Shown here: positions 47,925 to 63,831 of the stretch, one piece after another | Numbering within the stretch: position 1 is the stretch's first letter | Layout: every line of letters begins with the position of its first letter | Origin: an uncultured Roseicyclus sp. | Lineage (GTDB): Bacteria; Pseudomonadota; Alphaproteobacteria; Rhodobacterales; Rhodobacteraceae | Direction: 5' to 3' | Assembly (NCBI GenBank): GCA_947489665.1 | Contig: CANLEH010000001.1 | Coordinates: forward strand, 1,150,501-1,214,500 | DNA length: 64,000 nucleotides | Translations under genes and position numbers: made by a program | Notes under the pieces: model-generated | Database searches by the model: none | Seen by the model: the letters and a program-made list of their open reading frames with translations, nothing else | Told to the model about the DNA's origin: nothing

Positions 47925-50621
47925 TCAGTCTGTCTTTTTTGCCGGTTTCTTCTTGGCGGCTGGCTTTTTCTTAGCCGCCGTCTTGCGCTTGCCCGTGCCT
48001 TTTCCGCCTTTGGCGATTTTCTCGTTTAGCACCTCGAGGGCTTTTTCCATCGTCACGGCTTCCGGGTCGACATCCTTTGGAAGGGTCGCATTGATCTTGG
48101 CCCATTTGACGTAAGGTCCATAGCGGCCCTTCATCACTTGCACCGGACCGCCTTCCTCGGGGTGTTCGCCCAATTCCTTCAACGGCGCGGCCCCCTGACC
48201 GCGCCCGCCGCGGCCGGCGGCTTTTTCGGCGATCAACTCAACCGCTCGGTTCATGCCAACAGTGAAGACTTCTTCCACATCCGGCAGGTTGGCGTAGATC
48301 CGGCCATGTTTGACGTATGGCCCATAGCGCCCGATCCCGGCCTCGACTGGCTCGCCATCTTCAGGGTGGTCGCCGATCTTGCGCGGCAAGCTGAGCAGCG
48401 TCAGCGCCTTTTCAAGGTCGATATCGTCAACCTCCCACCCTTTGGGCAGGGAGGCGCGCGGAGGTTTCTTGTTCTCCTCAGTCACATCGCCAAGCTGCAC
48501 ATACGGGCCAAATCGGCCGGTGCGCAGGGTCACACGTTCGGACGTATCGGGGTCAACGCCCAACATTTTGCCGTCCGGCCCGAGAATGTCGCCGGTCTGA
48601 TCGGCGCCTTCCTGAGGCGGGCCGAAGGCGCGGGTGTAGCGGCATTCGGGGTAGTTTGAGCAGCCGATGAATGCGCCACCCGCCCGCGCGGTGCGCATGG
48701 AAAGACGACCCGCGCCGCAATTCGGACAAAGGCGCGGGTCCGAGCCGTCTTCCTTGGCGGGGAACAGGTGCGGCTCCAGCACCTCGTTGATTTTCTCAAG
48801 CACATCCGTGATGCGGAGCTCGGATGTTTCTTCAACCGCGGCGTGGAAATCCTTCCAGAACCGGTCGAGCACGTCCTTGTAGTGGCGGTCGCCCGCGCTG
48901 ACTTCATCCAGCTGGTTTTCCAGGTCGGCGGTGAAGTCGTAGCCCACATATTTGCGGAAGTAATTCGACAGGAAGACCGTCACGAGGCGGCCCTTGTCCT
49001 CGGGGATCAGGCGGCCTTTGTCCTTGATGACATAGCCGCGGTTCTGGATCGTATCCATGATCGAGGCATAGGTGGAGGGACGGCCAATACCGAGCTCTTC
49101 CATCCGTTTGACCAGCGTGGCCTCGGTATAGCGGGGCGGGGGCTGGGTGTGGTGCTGTTGGCCGAGAACGGCGCCATTGGCCGACAGGAGGGCGGATTTG
49201 GAGCGGCGGAGATCGCCGCCATCTTCTTCTACAACATCCTCGCCTGCGAGCTTGGCGTATTCTCCGGCCAAGCCTTCGGAAGCCAGCGCCATGGCGTCGC
49301 CTTGGGTGACTTGGGGCAGGCGGCGGCTGTCTTCATCATCGCCCTGCACATCGTCGCGGCCTTCCTCGTAGACCTTGAGGAAGCCGTCGAAGAGGACAAC
49401 CTGACCCGTGGCGCGCAACTCGACATCTCCCGCCGTGTCGCCGATGGTCACGGTCGTCCGCTCCATCCGTGCGGCTTCCATCTGGCTGGCAACCGTGCGC
49501 TTCCAGATCAGGTCGTAAAGCTTGCGCTGATCGTCCTCCGAAAGCTTCAAGTCAGCGGCGGCCTTGGACATATCCGTGGGGCGGATACATTCATGGGCTT
49601 CCTGCGCGTTCTTGGCCTTGTTCTTGTAGATCCGCGGTTTGCTGGGGACGTAGGCGTCGCCATAGCGGTCCTTGATTGCGGACCGCGCGTCCTCGACGGC
49701 CTCTGGCGCCATGTCGATGCCGTCGGTCCGCATGTAGGTGATGTGCCCGGCCTCGTAGAGACGCTGCGCGGTGGACATGCAGGCCCGCGCGCCCATGCCA
49801 AACTTGCGCGACGCCTCCTGCTGGAGGGTGGATGTCATGAAGGGCGGGGAGGGGTTGCGCGAGGTCGGCTTGGCCTCAACCTCGCGCACTTCGAGCGCAC
49901 GGGAGGCCACGGCCTGAACGGCAAGACCCGCTTCGGCGGCGGTGGGCAGATCGTAGCGATCAAGCTTCTTGCTGCCCAGAACGGTCAGGCGCGCTTCAAG
50001 CTGTTGGCCACGCGGCGTTTCCAGTGTGGCGCGGACGGACCAATATTCGCGGGGGTTAAACGCCTCAATCTCCATCTCGCGTTCGACAACAAGGCGGAGG
50101 CAGACGGATTGCACGCGACCCGCCGACTTCGCGCCGGGCAGCTTGCGCCAGAGGACGGGCGAGAGGGTGAAGCCCACAAGATAGTCGAGCGCGCGTCGTG
50201 CGAGGTAAGCCTCGACCAGCTCCATATCGACTTCGCGCGGCTCGGCCATGGCCTTGGTCACGGCGTCCTTGGTGATCGCGTTGAAGGTCACGCGCTTGAC
50301 CGGCGTGTCCTTTTTGATGGCCTTGCGCGAAGTCAGCGCCTCTTGCAGGTGCCAACTGATCGCCTCGCCCTCACGATCAGGGTCAGTCGCGAGGATCAAG
50401 GACGGGTCGTCTTTCAACGCATCGACGATGGCTTTGACGTGTTTTTTGGAATCAGAGGCCACCTCCCACTTCATCGCGAAGGCCTCTTCCGGGTCGACGG
50501 AGCCGTCCTTGGAAGGCAGGTCGCGGACGTGGCCGTAGGAGGCGAGAACCGTGTAATCCTTGCCCAAATACTTGTTGATTGTCTTGGCCTTGGCCGGGGA
50601 TTCGACAACAACAACGGGCAT
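47925..50621 (-). CDS. topA: DNA topoisomerase I
   Basis: MPVVVVESPAKAKTINKYLGKDYTVLASYGHVRDLP; C-terminal zinc-finger and Lys-rich tail. Confidence 0.96.
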   Translation of the reverse strand: MPVVVVESPAKAKTINKYLGKDYTVLASYGHVRDLPSKDGSVDPEEAFAMKWEVASDSKKHVKAIVDALKDDPSLILATDPDREGEAISWHLQEALTSRKAIKKDTPVKRVTFNAITKDAVTKAMAEPREVDMELVEAYLARRALDYLVGFTLSPVLWRKLPGAKSAGRVQSVCLRLVVEREMEIEAFNPREYWSVRATLETPRGQQLEARLTVLGSKKLDRYDLPTAAEAGLAVQAVASRALEVREVEAKPTSRNPSPPFMTSTLQQEASRKFGMGARACMSTAQRLYEAGHITYMRTDGIDMAPEAVEDARSAIKDRYGDAYVPSKPRIYKNKAKNAQEAHECIRPTDMSKAAADLKLSEDDQRKLYDLIWKRTVASQMEAARMERTTVTIGDTAGDVELRATGQVVLFDGFLKVYEEGRDDVQGDDEDSRRLPQVTQGDAMALASEGLAGEYAKLAGEDVVEEDGGDLRRSKSALLSANGAVLGQQHHTQPPPRYTEATLVKRMEELGIGRPSTYASIMDTIQNRGYVIKDKGRLIPEDKGRLVTVFLSNYFRKYVGYDFTADLENQLDEVSAGDRHYKDVLDRFWKDFHAAVEETSELRITDVLEKINEVLEPHLFPAKEDGSDPRLCPNCGAGRLSMRTARAGGAFIGCSNYPECRYTRAFGPPQEGADQTGDILGPDGKMLGVDPDTSERVTLRTGRFGPYVQLGDVTEENKKPPRASLPKGWEVDDIDLEKALTLLSLPRKIGDHPEDGEPVEAGIGRYGPYVKHGRIYANLPDVEEVFTVGMNRAVELIAEKAAGRGGRGQGAAPLKELGEHPEEGGPVQVMKGRYGPYVKWAKINATLPKDVDPEAVTMEKALEVLNEKIAKGGKGTGKRKTAAKKKPAAKKKPAKKTD

Positions 50622-50726
50622 GGATGAGGCACCTTTCAACGTGGGACTGCCACAGACGTGGCGTGGCGGCGGAACATGTGGGGCCTTGGGGGCGGATGTC
50701 AATGCGGGGTATTTTGCGGGGCAGCC

Positions 50727-50779
50727 GGCCCGGGTCGGCGGACGGCCCACCCGCCCACCCCCGTCCCCCGACCCGGGCC
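50727..50779. repeat. 53-bp hairpin with G-quadruplex-motif loop, copy 1
   Basis: 19-bp stem (one mismatch) GGCCCGGGTCGGCGGACGG / CCGTCCCCCGACCCGGGCC flanking 15-nt loop CCCACCCGCCCACCC. Confidence 0.85.
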
Positions 50780-50868
50780 TGATGGCGACGGTCTGGTTTC
50801 ACAAGCGGACAGTGCACCGGGGGCTGTTGTCGTTTTTGCATTTTCGGGGAATAAAGAAGGGCAGGGCT

Positions 50869-52050
50869 TCAATTACCCGTGAGATGGACCATGCCGCCTG
50901 GTGCACGGCGCAGGCGACCGGAGAGTTCTAGCACTGCAAGGGATTGCGCAAGGTCGCGGGGCGTTGTCTGCAGATCGCGGACCAATTGGTCTTCGGCGAT
51001 GGGAACGGGACCAAGGGCTGCTAGGATGCGCGCTTCCAGCGGATCAGTTGGTGGGTTTGGTTTCGCCTCTTCGATCGATGCCGTGTCGGGTACGGCTTCG
51101 CGCAGCGGCGTTGCAGGGGTACCGAGTGCCTCGATCACGTCGTCGGCGCTTCGGATAAGAGTGGCCCCGTCACGCAGCAGGATATTGCCGCCTGAGGCGC
51201 GGCTGTCCATCGGGTGGCCGGGCACTGCCATAACCTCGCGCCCCTGATCGGCGGCCAAGCGAGCTGTGATGAGCGAGCCGGAACGCGCCGCGGCTTCAAT
51301 CACGATAACGCCCTGTGCGAGACCAGAGACGATGCGATTGCGACGCGGGAAATGGCGGGCTTGCGGTTGTAGGCCGAGGGGTTGCTCGGACAGACGCAGG
51401 CCGTTTTGTGTGATTTGCGCGGCGAGATCGGCATTTTCGACCGGGTAGACCACGTCTACGCCGCCTGCCATGACGGCGATGGTGCCGGTGGGCAGACTGG
51501 CGGCATGGGCCAGGGCATCAATGCCGCGGGCGAGGCCGGAGACCACGGTGAAGCCCGCTTCGCCAAGCTCTGCCGTCAATTTTCGCACCATGCGCGCGCC
51601 GAGGCTGGAGGCGTTGCGGGTACCGACGATGGCCACGCAGGGCCGCGCCATCAGGCTGGCCTGGCCCATGGCCCAAAGGATCGGGGGCGCGTCGGGGATC
51701 TCGGCCAGATGATCGGGGTAATCGGGATCGCCAAGGCAGATCATGCGGGCGCCTGCGCGAGCGGCGGCCCGCAACTCAGCCTTCACCACGGGCTCAGGGC
51801 AGGGTTCATAGCCTTTCACGCCAGCGGCGGCGGCGACGTCTGGCAAGGCATCCAGGGCCGCCTTGGCGGATCCATGTTCGGCCAGCAGGCGCAGATAGGT
51901 CGCGGGGCCAACGCGGCGCGACCGGATCAGGCGCAGGCGCGTGGCGCGGTCATCATCGCTGGAGGAGGGCGGCGGCACAAATCCCGCCGGGGCTTCATAA
52001 AAGCCAGGGTCGGGAGCGTAGTGCAGTTGAGAATCGGGTGCGGTCCACAT
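50869..52050 (-). CDS. dprA: DNA-processing protein DprA
   Basis: VAIVGTRNASSLGARMVRKLTAELGEAGFTVVSGLARGIDALAHAASL. Confidence 0.95.
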   Translation of the reverse strand: MWTAPDSQLHYAPDPGFYEAPAGFVPPPSSSDDDRATRLRLIRSRRVGPATYLRLLAEHGSAKAALDALPDVAAAAGVKGYEPCPEPVVKAELRAAARAGARMICLGDPDYPDHLAEIPDAPPILWAMGQASLMARPCVAIVGTRNASSLGARMVRKLTAELGEAGFTVVSGLARGIDALAHAASLPTGTIAVMAGGVDVVYPVENADLAAQITQNGLRLSEQPLGLQPQARHFPRRNRIVSGLAQGVIVIEAAARSGSLITARLAADQGREVMAVPGHPMDSRASGGNILLRDGATLIRSADDVIEALGTPATPLREAVPDTASIEEAKPNPPTDPLEARILAALGPVPIAEDQLVRDLQTTPRDLAQSLAVLELSGRLRRAPGGMVHLTGN

Positions 52051-52085
52051 GGGGACAGGCTTGCGGCCGATTGGTTAACAGAACG

Positions 52086-52571
52086 TTACTGATCCGCCTC
52101 AAGCAACGTGTCCGGTGCAATCCAGCGTGTGGCGCACCATAGGACGAGGGCGTGCAGCGCTACGATGGGCGACAGGATCAGCATCGCACCTATCGCCGCC
52201 GCCGTCGGGTCGAGCAGCTGATAAATCAACCCGATCGCAAGGGGGAGAAAAACTGACGCAAGCAGTGCCACGGCCCATCCCGCAAAGCCCAACCGCATGG
52301 CCCATGCCCCGAGGAGCAGGGCTGCGGGAACGGCGTATATGCCGACAAACGGGGCCAAAACAGCCAGGCCGGAAAAGGAGCCAATGACCTGGAAGGCCGG
52401 TATCTCGGTCTGCGCCCCGAGCAACAGGAAAGGAAGCCCGACAGCAAGCATGATCGCAGCCGGCCCGAGCAAGGCGGTAAGGCCAATCTTTACCAAGGCC
52501 CGGGCGGTCAGATGACGATGCCCAAAACGGCGTGACCGGAAGGCAGGCGTGAAAAATCGGGCTTTGCTCAT
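52086..52571 (-). CDS. Hypothetical membrane protein
   Basis: About 4 TM segments; start MSKARFFTPAF inferred. Confidence 0.65.
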   Translation of the reverse strand: MSKARFFTPAFRSRRFGHRHLTARALVKIGLTALLGPAAIMLAVGLPFLLLGAQTEIPAFQVIGSFSGLAVLAPFVGIYAVPAALLLGAWAMRLGFAGWAVALLASVFLPLAIGLIYQLLDPTAAAIGAMLILSPIVALHALVLWCATRWIAPDTLLEADQ

Positions 52572-53058
52572 GTCGCGGAGTTCAGAGACTTGGTCATGAT
52601 CTGGACGTGCAGGATGAATGCGCCCGGTCCGTTTGCCGAGTCTAGGGGCACGTCGGCGCGTCGGTCCAATCGCCATCCCTCACGTTCGTAGAAACGAATG
52701 GCGCGGGCATTTTCGATGACGACATCCAGCCAAGCCTCAGCCACGCCTGCAGCGGCCAGGCGGCGCTCCGCATCCTTAAGAAGGTCGGAGGCGAGACCGG
52801 ATCCACGCGCGGCGGGCGCCACGAACAATTGCTGCATCTCGTCCTCGCGAATAACGCAAAGCCCCAAAGGCGCGCCGATTGGCCCGGCTGTGCGCAATGT
52901 GTCCAGCATCAGGGGAAGACGCATTTGAAAGTCGGCCAGTGTGCGAAGATTTACCAGCGCCGCCGGGACATGCGCGGCATGGGCTTCGTGCCACGCGTCA
53001 TGCCAGAGTTGTGCCAGTGGGGCGAGGTCGTCCTCGACCGCTTGTCTGATGGTGTCTC

Positions 53059-53062
<4 letters not shown>
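52568..53062 (-). CDS. GNAT-family N-acetyltransferase (GTG start)
   Basis: MQQLFVAPAARGSGLASDLLKDAERRLAAAG...NARAIRFYEREGW. Confidence 0.87.
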
Positions 53063-54483
<1,421 letters not shown>

Positions 54484-54813
54484 ATTCTGATCTCCTTGTT
54501 CCTGTCTCTTACATATGTCGTTTTGGGTCAGGTGCGACACCCCGTCTCGCCTGGACGGTGGAATTCTGCGGGGACGGGTATTCGGCTGCTGAAAAGCGAA
54601 TGTTTTCAAAGGATAGAACCCCTGCGCGCATCGCTTTGCGACACGCATTCGAGTCTTCAGGCGCGCCTGCGTCACACCCTTGCCTGAGACAATTTACGCC
54701 ACTGCCTTGCGCGTTCGCACGCGATATGGTCTGGCCAAATCGGAACAGGACCGGCTGCGACCGGTGGGCATTCCCCCGCCGCGAACGACCGAACGGACAA
54801 CAGGACAGACCAC

Positions 54814-55704
54814 ATGGCACTTCGCACGAAGCTCAGCGGCCTTTGGGCCGCGCTTGGCGCAACCCTTACGGCGACCGCCGTTTCCGCGCAGACCACCGGG
54901 ATGCGTGAAGGACTGGAAATCATCGGTGCGCCGATCCCCGGCGGCACGGATTTTCAACCGGGCGTAACCGAAGGCGCAATCGACATCCGCGCGCTTGACG
55001 GCTTTCTGCACATCATCGCAATCATCATCACGGTGTTCGTGCTTGGCCTGATGCTTTGGGTGGCTGTGAAGCACAATGCAAAGGCCAACCCCAAGCCCGC
55101 GACCTTCTCGCACAACACGCCGATCGAGGTGACGTGGACGCTTGTGCCGCTGTTGATCCTTGTGGTGATCGGGGCCTTCTCGCTGCCCGTTCTGTTCAAG
55201 CAGCAAACGATCCCAGAGGCGGATGTCGTTGTGCGTGCCACGGGCTATCAATGGTACTGGGGCTATGAGTATCCGGAAGAGGGCATCTCCTACGACAGCT
55301 TCATGCTGAACGAGGATGAGCTGCTGGATTACGGTTATAGCCGCGATGAATATCTGCTGGCCACCGACACTGCGGTTGTTGTTCCGACGGGTCAGACGGT
55401 TGTGGTTCAGGTCACTGCCGCAGACGTGATCCATTCCTGGACGATCCCCGCCTTCGGCGTGAAACAGGACGGAGTTCCGGGTCGCCTCGCAGAACTGCAC
55501 TTCAACGTCGAGCCGGGGCAGGAAGGCATTTACTTCGGCCAGTGTTCTGAGCTGTGCGGTGCGGCGCATGCCTACATGCCGATCACGGTGTTCGCTGTAA
55601 CGCCTGAGGAATATGAGGCGTGGTTGGCGGGTGAAGCGGCTGAATTTGCGTCGCTCGAAGGAGCGCGCGCGCCGCGTTACATCGAACTGGCCTCCGCCGA
55701 GTAA
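54814..55704 (+). CDS. ctaC: Cytochrome c oxidase subunit II
   Basis: ATGYQWYWGYEYPEEG, VIHSWTIPAFGVKQD, GQCSELCGAAHAYMPI (CuA site). Confidence 0.96.
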   Translation: MALRTKLSGLWAALGATLTATAVSAQTTGMREGLEIIGAPIPGGTDFQPGVTEGAIDIRALDGFLHIIAIIITVFVLGLMLWVAVKHNAKANPKPATFSHNTPIEVTWTLVPLLILVVIGAFSLPVLFKQQTIPEADVVVRATGYQWYWGYEYPEEGISYDSFMLNEDELLDYGYSRDEYLLATDTAVVVPTGQTVVVQVTAADVIHSWTIPAFGVKQDGVPGRLAELHFNVEPGQEGIYFGQCSELCGAAHAYMPITVFAVTPEEYEAWLAGEAAEFASLEGARAPRYIELASAE

Positions 55705-55713
55705 GCCTGAGCC

Positions 55714-56649
55714 ATGAGCGATTACACCGCACAAACGGCGACCGAGACCCGCACCGCTGAAAGCGAGGCGGGCTTCGGCGATTATCTGGCGCTGCTCAAG
55801 CCGCGGGTGATGTCGCTTGTCGTGTTCACTGCGCTGGTCGGCCTGCTGGTTGCGCCCGGCGGTGTGTCGCCGATGATCGGCTTCACGGCGATCCTGTTCA
55901 TTGCCTTGGGGGCAGGGGCCTCTGGAGCGCTGAATATGTGGTATGACGCCGACATTGATGCGGTGATGAAGCGCACGGCCAAGCGGCCTGTGCCAGCGGG
56001 TAAAGTGCCCGCCGGTGAGGCGCTGACGCTGGGACTTTGGTTGTCTGCAATATCCGTGATCATGCTGGGGCTTGCGACCAACTGGGTCGCTGCGAGCCTT
56101 CTGGCGTTCACCATTTTCTTCTACGCCGTCGTCTACACGATGTGGCTGAAGCGGGCGACGCCGCAGAACATTGTCATTGGTGGCGCGGCTGGGGCCTTCC
56201 CGCCGGTGATCGGATGGGCGGCTGTGACGGGTGATGTATCCATCGCCTCAGTCCTGATGTTCGGCTTGATCTTCATGTGGACACCGCCGCATTTCTGGGC
56301 GCTCGCGCTGTTCATGAAGTCGGACTATCACAAGGCCGATGTGCCGATGCTGACGGTGACCCATGGCCGCGCGGAGACGCGCAAGCAAATCCTGATCTAC
56401 ACGGTTTTGCTAGTCCCCGTTGCCCTGGGTCTTGCGTTCACCGCAGTGGCCGGGCCGGTCTATCTGGCCGCTGCCGTTGTCCTGAATGCGATCTTCCTGA
56501 AAGGCGCATGGGACATCTGGCGACGCGACGAAGAGGCTGCAGAAGCAGACGGATACCTGGTTGAGAAGAAAGTCTTCAAATTCTCACTCCTCTACCTGTT
56601 CCTGCATTTCGGTGCCTTGCTTGTTGATGCGATCTGGAGGCTGATCTGA
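55714..56649 (+). CDS. ctaB: Protoheme IX farnesyltransferase
   Basis: [41 protein letters not shown]. Confidence 0.96.
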
Positions 56650-56846
56650 TGCCCTTGGCTGAAACGCACGAGATCCACAAACGCCGCTTTGGCCGCAACT
56701 TTGGCACGGCGCTTTGCCTTGTCGGGTTCTGCGCCGTGGTGTTCGGTTTGACCATCGCAAAGGTCCGGGAAGGCAGCCTGTTGGAAGCCCATGACCATCA
56801 ACCGCGCGCCTCGGCCCTTCCGATTTCGGAGGAGTTGAGCCAGTGA
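56649..56846 (+). CDS. Small single-TM protein within cta operon
   Basis: 65 aa; overlaps ctaB and ctaG; ETHEIHKRRFGRNFGTALCLVGFCAVVFGLTIAKVREG. Confidence 0.75.
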   Translation: MPLAETHEIHKRRFGRNFGTALCLVGFCAVVFGLTIAKVREGSLLEAHDHQPRASALPISEELSQ

Positions 56847-57421
56847 GCGATCGGCGCGCCATGGATCCCAAGGCCAAGACCGTCCTGCAACTTCTGGGCG
56901 TGATCTGCTTTATGGGCGCGCTCACCGTTGCGGCGGTGCCGTTTTACGATTGGTTCTGCCGTGTCACAGGCTTCGGTGGCGCGACGGTGCAGGCCGATGC
57001 GGGCAGCGATGTGATCCTGGATCAGGAAATCCGCATCCGCTTTGCCGCCAACACTGCGCGCGACATGCCGTGGGAGTTCCGCCCCATGGAGCCTCATGTG
57101 GACATCCGCATCGGCGAGACCGGGCTGGCCTTCTACGAGGCCTACAACCCGACGAGCGAGCCGATTGCAGGCACCGCCAGCTTCAACGTCGCCCCATTCG
57201 ATGTGGGCGGCTATTTCGTGAAGATCGCCTGCTTCTGCTTTGAGCTTCAGGTGCTTCAGCCCGGTGAACGGGTCGAGATGCCCGTGACCTTCTTTGTCGA
57301 CCCCGAGATCCTTGATGATCCGACGGTGCGCGACACGCCCGCAATAACCCTGTCCTATACGTTCCACGTAACGGACATGCCCGAAAACGACGACTACGCC
57401 GCGCTTGACGCAGGCAACTGA
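56843..57421 (+). CDS. ctaG: Cytochrome c oxidase assembly protein CtaG/Cox11
   Basis: [44 protein letters not shown]. Confidence 0.95.
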
Positions 57422-57443
57422 ACGACAGACCGGAGAGACCACA

Positions 57444-58253
57444 ATGGCCCACGTCAAAAAGCACGACTATCACATCCTGCAGCCCTCGATCTGGCCGCTC
57501 GTGGCCGCAATTGGCGCGTTTGCGATGCTGTTTGGGGCGGTGAACTGGATGCATTCCGGCAGCCCTTGGCTGTTCCTCGCCGGGTTCGCTGCGGTGCTCT
57601 ACGTGATGTTCGCCTGGTGGTCGGACGTGGTCAGCGAAAGCCATGATGGCGATCACACACCGGTTGTGCGCCTTGGCCTGCGCTACGGCTTCATCATGTT
57701 CATCATGTCCGAGGTGATGTTCTTTGTCGCCTGGTTCTGGGCCTTCTTCAAACACGCGATCTTCCCGATGAGCGAGTACGAGGCCTCCACCTACGTCACG
57801 CCTGAGATCTACATCGTCGACCCGTTTCACCTGCCGCTGATCAACACTTTGATTCTGCTTTTGTCGGGCTGCCTTGTGACCTGGGCGCACCACGCGCTGG
57901 TCCACGGTGGGTCCCGCAAGGACGTGGCGACCGGCCTGATCGGTGCGGTTGTGTTGGGTGTGCTGTTCACCGCCCTTCAGGCCTATGAATATTACGAACT
58001 GATCGTGCATCATCACTGGGATTTCATTGATGGCGACCGGTTCTATTCGACCTTCTTCATGGCGACCGGCTTCCACGGCTTCCACGTGGTGATCGGCACG
58101 ATCTTCCTGTTCATCTGTTGGCTGCGGGTCCGTTCGGGTCACTTCACGGCTGAAAAGCATGTCGGGTTTGAGGCGGCTGCCTGGTACTGGCACTTTGTGG
58201 ACGTTGTCTGGCTGTTCCTTTTCCTGGCCGTGTACATCTGGGGCCAAGGCTAA
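57444..58253 (+). CDS. ctaE: Cytochrome c oxidase subunit III
   Basis: [39 protein letters not shown]. Confidence 0.96.
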
Positions 58254-58266
58254 GTTGTCCGGGTTC

Positions 58267-58319
58267 GGGCGGGAATGGCAGAGCGCCCACCCGCCCACCC
58301 CGCTCTGCCCTTCCCGCCC
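58267..58319. repeat. 53-bp hairpin with G-quadruplex-motif loop, copy 2
   Basis: 19-bp stem (one mismatch) GGGCGGGAATGGCAGAGCG / CGCTCTGCCCTTCCCGCCC flanking 15-nt loop CCCACCCGCCCACCC. Confidence 0.85.
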
Positions 58320-58403
58320 TTCGCGGAACGGATAGGTCGCAGTTTTAGATCCAATGAAAGAGGCCTGCCATGCGGTGGGCCTTTCGATTTCAAGGAGGGG
58401 CCG

Positions 58404-59072
58404 GTGCGCGCACGGTTGATTACTGTGACTTTGTTCGGTCTGATCGGGGCGGCCATTCTGGTCAGTCTCGGCGTGTGGCAGCTACAACGCCTCGCCTGGA
58501 AAGAGGACGTTCTGGCCGAAATTGACGGCCGAATTGCAGCGGCGCCGGTTCCGGTGCCAGTCGAACCTGACCCAGAGGCTGACCGGTTCTTGCCCGTGCA
58601 GGCGCAAGGCATCCTGGATGGCGATCCCCTGCGGGTTCTTGTATCTGTCCAAGGGTCTGGTCCCGGTTATCGCCTGATCTCGGCATTCGAGACGGAAGGC
58701 CGCCGCGTCTTGCTTGATCGCGGTTTTTTGGCGGAAGGTGTCGCCCTTCCCGACCCTATCGAGGATCAGGTCACAATCACCGGCAATCTCCATTGGCCGG
58801 ACGAAGTGGATGGCTTCACGCCTGACCCCGACACCGCCCGCAATCAATGGTTCGCCCGCGATGTGGACGCCATCGCCGCCCATCTTGGGACGGAACCGGT
58901 TTTCATCGTGCTGCGCGAAATGTCGGTGTCAGACGCGCCCGTGACGCCTTTGCCCGTGACGTCCGAGGGTATTCCGAACAACCATCTGGGCTATGCAATC
59001 CAGTGGTTCGGGCTTGCGCTTGTCTGGTTGGGGATGACAGCGTTCCTGGCTTGGCGTATCACGCGGACCTAA
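58404..59072 (+). CDS. SURF1 family cytochrome oxidase biogenesis protein (GTG start)
   Basis: GVWQLQRLAWKEDVLAEIDGRI, HLGYAIQWFGLALVWLGM; SD AGGAGGGG. Confidence 0.92.
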   Translation: MRARLITVTLFGLIGAAILVSLGVWQLQRLAWKEDVLAEIDGRIAAAPVPVPVEPDPEADRFLPVQAQGILDGDPLRVLVSVQGSGPGYRLISAFETEGRRVLLDRGFLAEGVALPDPIEDQVTITGNLHWPDEVDGFTPDPDTARNQWFARDVDAIAAHLGTEPVFIVLREMSVSDAPVTPLPVTSEGIPNNHLGYAIQWFGLALVWLGMTAFLAWRITRT

Positions 59073-63756: not shown

Positions 63757-63831
63757 TGCGTTCCCCTGAACGGAAATACGTTCAACTGAACGCATTTTTT
63801 CAGAAAAGTGCGTTCAGTTGAGCAGAGTTTG
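63757..63831. repeat. 75-bp triple-palindrome intergenic element, copy B (plus orientation)
   Basis: Modules GTTCCCCTGAAC / GTTCAACTGAAC / GTTCAGTTGAGC at 63760, 63780 and 63812; same backbone as copy A. Confidence 0.85.

Follow-up and report, generated by a model that had tools for sequence, protein, structure and literature searches.

Intergenic hairpins with a predicted G-quadruplex cap and a fixed orientation to replication in one bacterial family

The ctaE-SURF1 Locus

The window, i.e., the whole stretch of 64,000 nucleotides of Roseicyclus DNA that was analysed, contains two copies of a hairpin with a G-rich loop, one located between dprA and topA and the other between ctaE and SURF1, among the following features:

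49002..50621, − strand: topA, N-terminal part (the gene extends left of the scanned region); TIGR01051, E 7e-186
50727..50779, − strand: copy 1 of the element, located in the dprA-topA gap with its mRNA-sense strand G-rich; covariance model match, E 6e-7
50869..52050, − strand: dprA; TIGR00732, E 4e-69
57444..58253, + strand: ctaE, on the leading strand, encoding cytochrome c oxidase subunit III; PF00510, E 4e-80
58267..58319, − strand (G-rich folding strand, the leading-strand template): copy 2, the ctaE-SURF1 element, a hairpin with a predicted G-quadruplex (G4) cap; covariance model match, E 1.2e-9
58286..58300, − strand: loop GGGTGGGCGGGTGGG of the ctaE-SURF1 element, four G-tracts with one-nucleotide spacers
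58361..58382, + strand: second, terminator-like hairpin AGGCCTGCC-ATGC-GGTGGGCCT followed by the tail TTCGATTT, in the gap that separates the element from SURF1; permissive scan
58404..59072, + strand: SURF1 family gene; PF02104, E 5e-40

The ctaE-SURF1 element is 53 bp long and consists of a 19-bp stem with one T/C mismatch that encloses the 15-nt loop CCCACCCGCCCACCC; its coordinates, its sequence and each of these dimensions are exactly those of the original prediction. It was also correctly placed 14 nt after the ctaE stop codon, which ends at 58253, and 84 nt separate its end from the SURF1 start. The G-rich loop GGGTGGGCGGGTGGG has four runs of at least three G with short spacers and is therefore a G-quadruplex motif, while the formation of the quadruplex itself is predicted. 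Copy 1 has the identical loop and a different stem. In both copies the G-rich loop lies on the − strand, as do dprA and topA, and ctaE and SURF1 are on the + strand, which confirms the claim that the two copies are oppositely oriented with respect to transcription.

For both copies none of 200 shuffled sequences folded equally well (z −6.5 and −4.8), and on both strands the fold of the ctaE-SURF1 element is much superior to that of shuffled sequence. Among the inverted repeats listed for the window the two copies rank third and fourth, and they are the longest of those with separated arms. In congeneric DNA (800 kb) just 13 hairpins score at least 12, and a member of the element family is joint top. 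No Rfam family reaches its gathering score within 50400-58700, and membership in a known RNA family was rejected on this ground. The terminator-like hairpin at 58361..58382 was not recovered by a stricter terminator scan. Elsewhere in the window, at 63782-63821, lies a near-perfect inverted repeat, the 18-bp arms of which (TCAACTGAACGCATTTTT / AAAAGTGCGTTCAGTTGA) enclose a 4-nt loop and which is probably a bidirectional terminator between convergent genes.

A Family of Hairpins With a Constant Loop and Covarying Stems

Searches with the loop pattern gave further copies, in which unrelated stems surround the 15-nt loop; together with copy 1 they bear out the idea of a repeated element with a constant G4 loop and unrelated stems. 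An alignment of 34 elements was used to build a covariance model for genome searches. In this alignment all 17 stem pairs covary, with both sides changing, and 95.2% of cells are paired, compared with 57.7% in shuffles. The family architecture is a stem of 16-21 bp and a cap that is predicted to be a minimal-loop, three-tetrad G-quadruplex.

With the covariance model, elements were found in 12 of 13 congeners, in 55 of 298 genomes of the bacterial family, in 47 of 246 genomes of the order (every carrier belonging to the same bacterial family) and in 5 of 299 genomes of a phylum sample, again all in this family, the genome counts being lower bounds and the family, order and phylum sets overlapping. 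None of the approximately 285 sampled phylum genomes from outside the family has an element. Carriers thus make up about one fifth of the sampled family members and hold 1-18 copies each, these copy numbers also being lower bounds, since the large searches used stricter filters. Judging from these searches, the element is confined, among the sampled genomes, to one bacterial family.

The Roseicyclus genome, from a marine, Roseicyclus-like alphaproteobacterium, has 13 elements by the covariance model search; among named proteins, those of Roseicyclus match its SURF1 best. A third element lies at 1218808-1218860 of the same contig, approximately 4.3 kb past the window end, so that three elements with different stems cluster within 18 kb. 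Three GGGTGGGCGGGCGGG sequences on other contigs of this genome (L006, L009, and L010, on C4, C5, and C6) have no surrounding stem and are preceded by a C-rich/G-rich palindrome of the type GGGGGCAGNGCCCCC, that is, they represent a different repeat family; those on C4 and C5 are oriented in the same way as the hairpins. Long poly-G runs (C4:323221-323275, C5:86-141, C6:75-130, and C7:79270-79331), most of them at the ends of contigs, have the appearance of artefacts of sequencing or assembly.

Several sites are conserved between genomes. The original prediction had named absence from this locus in close relatives as evidence against the element, and 8 of the 13 congeners retain a C-rich-loop hairpin 3′ of ctaE, with a loop of 15-17 nt and diverged stems. 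Five of these eight have four intact tracts, two (G003 and G012) a broken tract and one (G004) a degenerate loop; in a ninth congener (G005) there is a hairpin whose loop is no G4 motif, and no hairpin was found 3′ of ctaE in the other four. Since a G-tract is broken in G003 and G012 and the loop of G005 is not a G4, the quadruplex seems to be dispensable at some ctaE sites. At the 3′ end of truB (named from sequence) nine congeners carry an element, and many genera carry one in the betB-betA gap, every time C-rich in the mRNA. The betB-betA gap ranges across genera (L252-L311) from overlap to more than 700 nt; gaps with an element are approximately 90-240 nt, and most element-free gaps are below 50 nt.

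One may ask whether such a family is a selfish or mutational product, spread via single-stranded DNA or formed as template-switch palindromes at stalled G4s, with replication setting its orientation. In genus g300 the stems are near-identical across loci (L162, L164, L183-L186, L190, L197, and L211-L213), unlike those of Roseicyclus, as if the element had spread there recently, and element pairs less than 30 kb apart in complete genomes number 6 against 2.7 expected (P 0.05); both observations favour such an origin. Orthologous sites, however, retain the fold as their stems drift, and compensatory change is found throughout. The dispersed intergenic hairpins known as REP elements also have one preferred foldable strand, and they have conserved stems and are associated with a Y1 transposase. 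The stems described here are free to differ while pairing is kept, so they do not share the conserved stem of REP, and Y1_Tnp is absent from G000 (the Roseicyclus genome), G002, G003, G049, G064, G082, G109, G252, G311, G313, and G436 and present in G254. Its lack in most element-rich genomes speaks against REP/RAYT mobility and against selfish spread, so that a selfish or mutational origin appears improbable.

Which Strand Folds

The strand on which the fold is maintained can be read from the mismatches that the stems tolerate. Read on the G-rich strand, the 102 distinct stems contain the mismatches G.T (54), G.A/A.G (42), and G.G (11), and of the reverse classes A.C (2), C.T (5), and C.C (4), which gives an overall asymmetry of 107:11. 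The tolerated mismatches are those that are stable on the G-strand and worst on the C-strand, and when the stem is considered by itself, the G-strand gives the more stable fold in 72 of 77 mismatch-bearing elements. The covariance model favours G.U pairs, but the asymmetry is no artefact of it, because the set collected by loop pattern only shows it as well (G.T 16, G.A 14, and G.G 8 vs. A.C 0, C.T 1, and C.C 2; 38:3). Intrinsic terminators of the same bacterial family, folded as RNA (2 Mb), have G.T:A.C of 66:28, G.A:C.T of 22:15, and G.G:C.C of 13:7; since these ratios are weaker, also for G.A and G.G, the bias of the elements exceeds that of terminators and is not limited to wobble pairs. 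Comparison of the stems thus shows that it is the fold of the G-rich strand that has been maintained.

Whether this strand folds as DNA or as RNA is a separate question. A G-rich RNA could act as a quadruplex switch in the 5′-UTR where it is sense and as a stop for antisense transcription elsewhere; G.U pairs are tolerated on the G-strand, and ViennaRNA with quadruplexes allowed retains stem and G4 in 101 of 101 elements. However, about half of the loci have the G-strand antisense to both neighbours (context '--', the G-strand being taken as +), the asymmetry of G.A and G.G is as strong as that of G.T, which is not so in the terminators of the family, and the replication polarity described below would be left unexplained, which makes a G-rich RNA a very doubtful functional form. 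The mismatch bias is the same at '--' loci, where neither neighbour's mRNA is the G-strand. Because the asymmetry holds whether or not the G-strand is mRNA, the folded species is more plausibly single-stranded DNA, and we take the asymmetry of the stems to mean that a DNA fold is maintained, an RNA fold being possible.

Orientation With Respect to Replication

For nine complete chromosomes the origin was set between dnaA and ParB, which separate origin from terminus. In 47 of 49 elements the strand with the G-rich loop serves as the template for leading-strand synthesis, regardless of gene direction, the effective number being below 49 because some of the elements are orthologous. For the two exceptions the distance to the geometric terminus is 50 and 160 kb, and along complete chromosomes element orientation switches at two places only. 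On draft contigs, neighbouring pairs are co-oriented in 53 of 58 cases (53:5). The element is therefore a replication-polarised motif, with an orientation fixed relative to origin and terminus. Neither this polarity nor the strand asymmetry of the mismatches featured in the original prediction, which had argued that an RNA-only function would have to tolerate both strands; such a function is unlikely, as orientation and strand-specific fold track the chromosome and not the transcript.

An independent marker of polarity was found in GGGNAGGG, the E. coli KOPS sequence. In two sampled chromosomes (G002:C1 and G003:C1) it is strongly polarised and flips at the same places as element orientation; near 106 elements it prefers the C-strand by 106:15, which is true for each gene context ('++' 34:1), and in the window it favours the + strand, opposite the G-rich loops, by 19:5. 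The window (1-64000) has 24 occurrences against 11.3 expected, i.e., twice as many, mostly as GGGCAGGG. It is likely that GGGNAGGG is the KOPS of the Roseicyclus group. KOPS-like GGGNAGGG and the element are alike in being G-rich and replication-polarised, but GGGNAGGG is short, far more numerous, does not fold and lies on the strand opposite the G4 loops.

Two trivial sources of the polarity were considered. Just 52% of genes are on the leading strand and '++' loci keep the polarity, so it is no by-product of gene orientation, and ordinary G4 motifs lean the opposite way to the elements (52:26), so it is no by-product of G4 strand bias; therefore neither accounts for it. A direct role in replication is a serious rival to the explanation favoured below, rather doubtful as we judge it: the element would be a polar site for replication or chromosome function, placed on the leading-strand template and acting on the fork itself, such as a barrier to terminus-to-origin forks, a site of re-priming or restart, or a mark for segregation or repair, and its placement at gene ends would be secondary. 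The polarity has almost no exceptions and does not depend on transcription, and a fork running the wrong way would have the G-strand as its lagging template, which carries the replicative helicase. On the other hand, carriers have as few as 1-18 copies, approximately four fifths of the family genomes have none found, no enrichment near the terminus was seen in G002 and G003, and the tight spacing to stop codons would be needless for a pure replication site.

Gene Context and the Question of Transcription Termination

With the G-strand as + and genes called by a simple codon-based caller, with no curated annotation, the elements lie in contexts '--' (52), '++' (23), '+-' (21), and '-+' (10); ordinary gaps in the same order give 121:104:49:103. 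Approximately 70% of elements are beside the end of a leading-strand gene, usually at a distance of 0-20 nt. In '--' and '+-' contexts the stop codon of the right-hand leading gene is mostly 0-20 nt from the stem, and in '++' and '-+' contexts most stems are 35-120 nt away from the next start codon. Since no leading-strand gene ends at the remaining 30% or so ('++' and '-+'), a terminator role fails to cover all elements.

The C-rich strand could still act as an mRNA hairpin, either as an unusual intrinsic terminator or as a 3′-end stabiliser of the upstream cistron, given that most elements lie directly 3′ of a stop with the C-rich strand as mRNA and that outside the genus the ctaE gap often holds a U-tailed terminator before SURF1. 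A GC-rich hairpin is possible on both strands, and the mismatches indicate that the C-rich mRNA strand is not the maintained one: even at these loci the A.C, C.T, and C.C pairs that they produce weaken the C-strand fold, and at '--' loci G.T outnumbers A.C by 23:0. No U-tract directly follows the stem on either strand (mean 1.5-2.6 T per 10 nt), and replication polarity would remain unaccounted for, so that we regard a C-rich RNA hairpin as unlikely. U-tailed terminators beyond the elements were rare everywhere scanned, and betB-betA gaps that lack an element have no clear one. Because the window has its terminator-like hairpin after the element, and because of these element-free betB-betA gaps, the element is no simple substitute for a terminator. 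The bet operon is on the leading strand in 43 of 48 cases (43:5); an element was found in 0 of 5 lagging-strand and 16 of 43 leading-strand operons, which is the expected direction with five cases only.

Relation to Known Structured Elements

The original prediction raised a possible link to the G-quadruplexes of nitrate assimilation in Paracoccus, which was not borne out. The nasT promoter of Paracoccus denitrificans is similar in having a G4 motif in a related bacterium, but its G4, GGGAGCGGGACGGGGGCCGGG, is a single promoter motif of different sequence with no hairpin described (PMC5123632). TMECO, the potential intrastrand triplex of E. coli, resembles the element as a short, G/C-rich structured DNA interspersed between genes in tens of copies; it has a conserved stem, a triplex CCCTCNCCC-GGGNGAGGG-GGGNGAGGG, less conserved loops and, as reported, no strand bias, whereas the elements here have variable stems, a constant loop and near-absolute replication polarity, and the TMECO pattern CCCTCNCCC N3-6 GGGNGAGGG N3 GGGNGAGGG is not matched by their sequence (PMC4666352). 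The recurrent G4s of Methanomicrobiaceae are likewise repeated, intergenic, often near gene ends and accompanied by a hairpin; there, however, the hairpin is formed by the G-tracts and competes with the G4, and no origin-relative regularity was found, while in the present elements the G-tracts make up the loop, apart from the stem (PMC8044849). TMECO and the archaeal G4s are the nearest described elements, and both lack a freely covarying stem and the polarity.

Integron attC sites offer a precedent for the placement of a foldable strand, since in large sedentary arrays the strand that folds preferentially is on the leading-strand template (PMC5371416). The elements here differ in being single and in lying between conserved housekeeping genes. 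The attC sites border gene cassettes and contain core sites for the integrase. A switch between G4, hairpin and duplex was reportedly described in E. coli by Kaplan et al. in 2016.

No published description of the exact loop was found in the freely accessible literature that was searched, nor anything matching the same architecture and polarity. The family is apparently undescribed so far, and there is a real chance that this interspersed, structured intergenic DNA element merits a class of its own.

A Possible Mechanism and Its Meaning

The explanation that we favour, tentatively and as one that may quite possibly hold, is that a hairpin-quadruplex acting at the DNA level marks the ends of leading-strand genes, and that the strand which folds is kept away from the lagging-strand template. 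The G-rich strand would fold as single-stranded DNA in cells. In the commonest setting, 0-20 nt past the stop of a leading-strand gene, this strand would double as the transcription template, and therefore the extruded hairpin-quadruplex could be a roadblock to RNA polymerase, which would end or attenuate transcription and separate cistrons, e.g., ctaE from SURF1 and betB from betA. On the lagging-strand template the fold would arise in single-stranded gaps and harm replication; the fixed orientation would keep the strongly folding strand off that template. We hold more loosely the possibility that the folded leading-strand template is the working form, which would act directly on RNA or DNA polymerase and couple the gene end to replication direction, as a new class of DNA element.

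If this were true, the family would use a structure-encoded polar signal without the need for a dedicated binding protein. Arguments that bacterial G-quadruplexes are functional usually rest on single promoters and on the effects of ligands. In this family, independent evolutionary evidence comes from a constant quadruplex loop, from stems that drift and covary, and from a folding strand that is known from mismatches and fixed relative to the fork. More than 100 natural loci are thus at hand, at which the effect of a template-strand DNA structure on transcription ends or on fork movement may be experimentally challenged.
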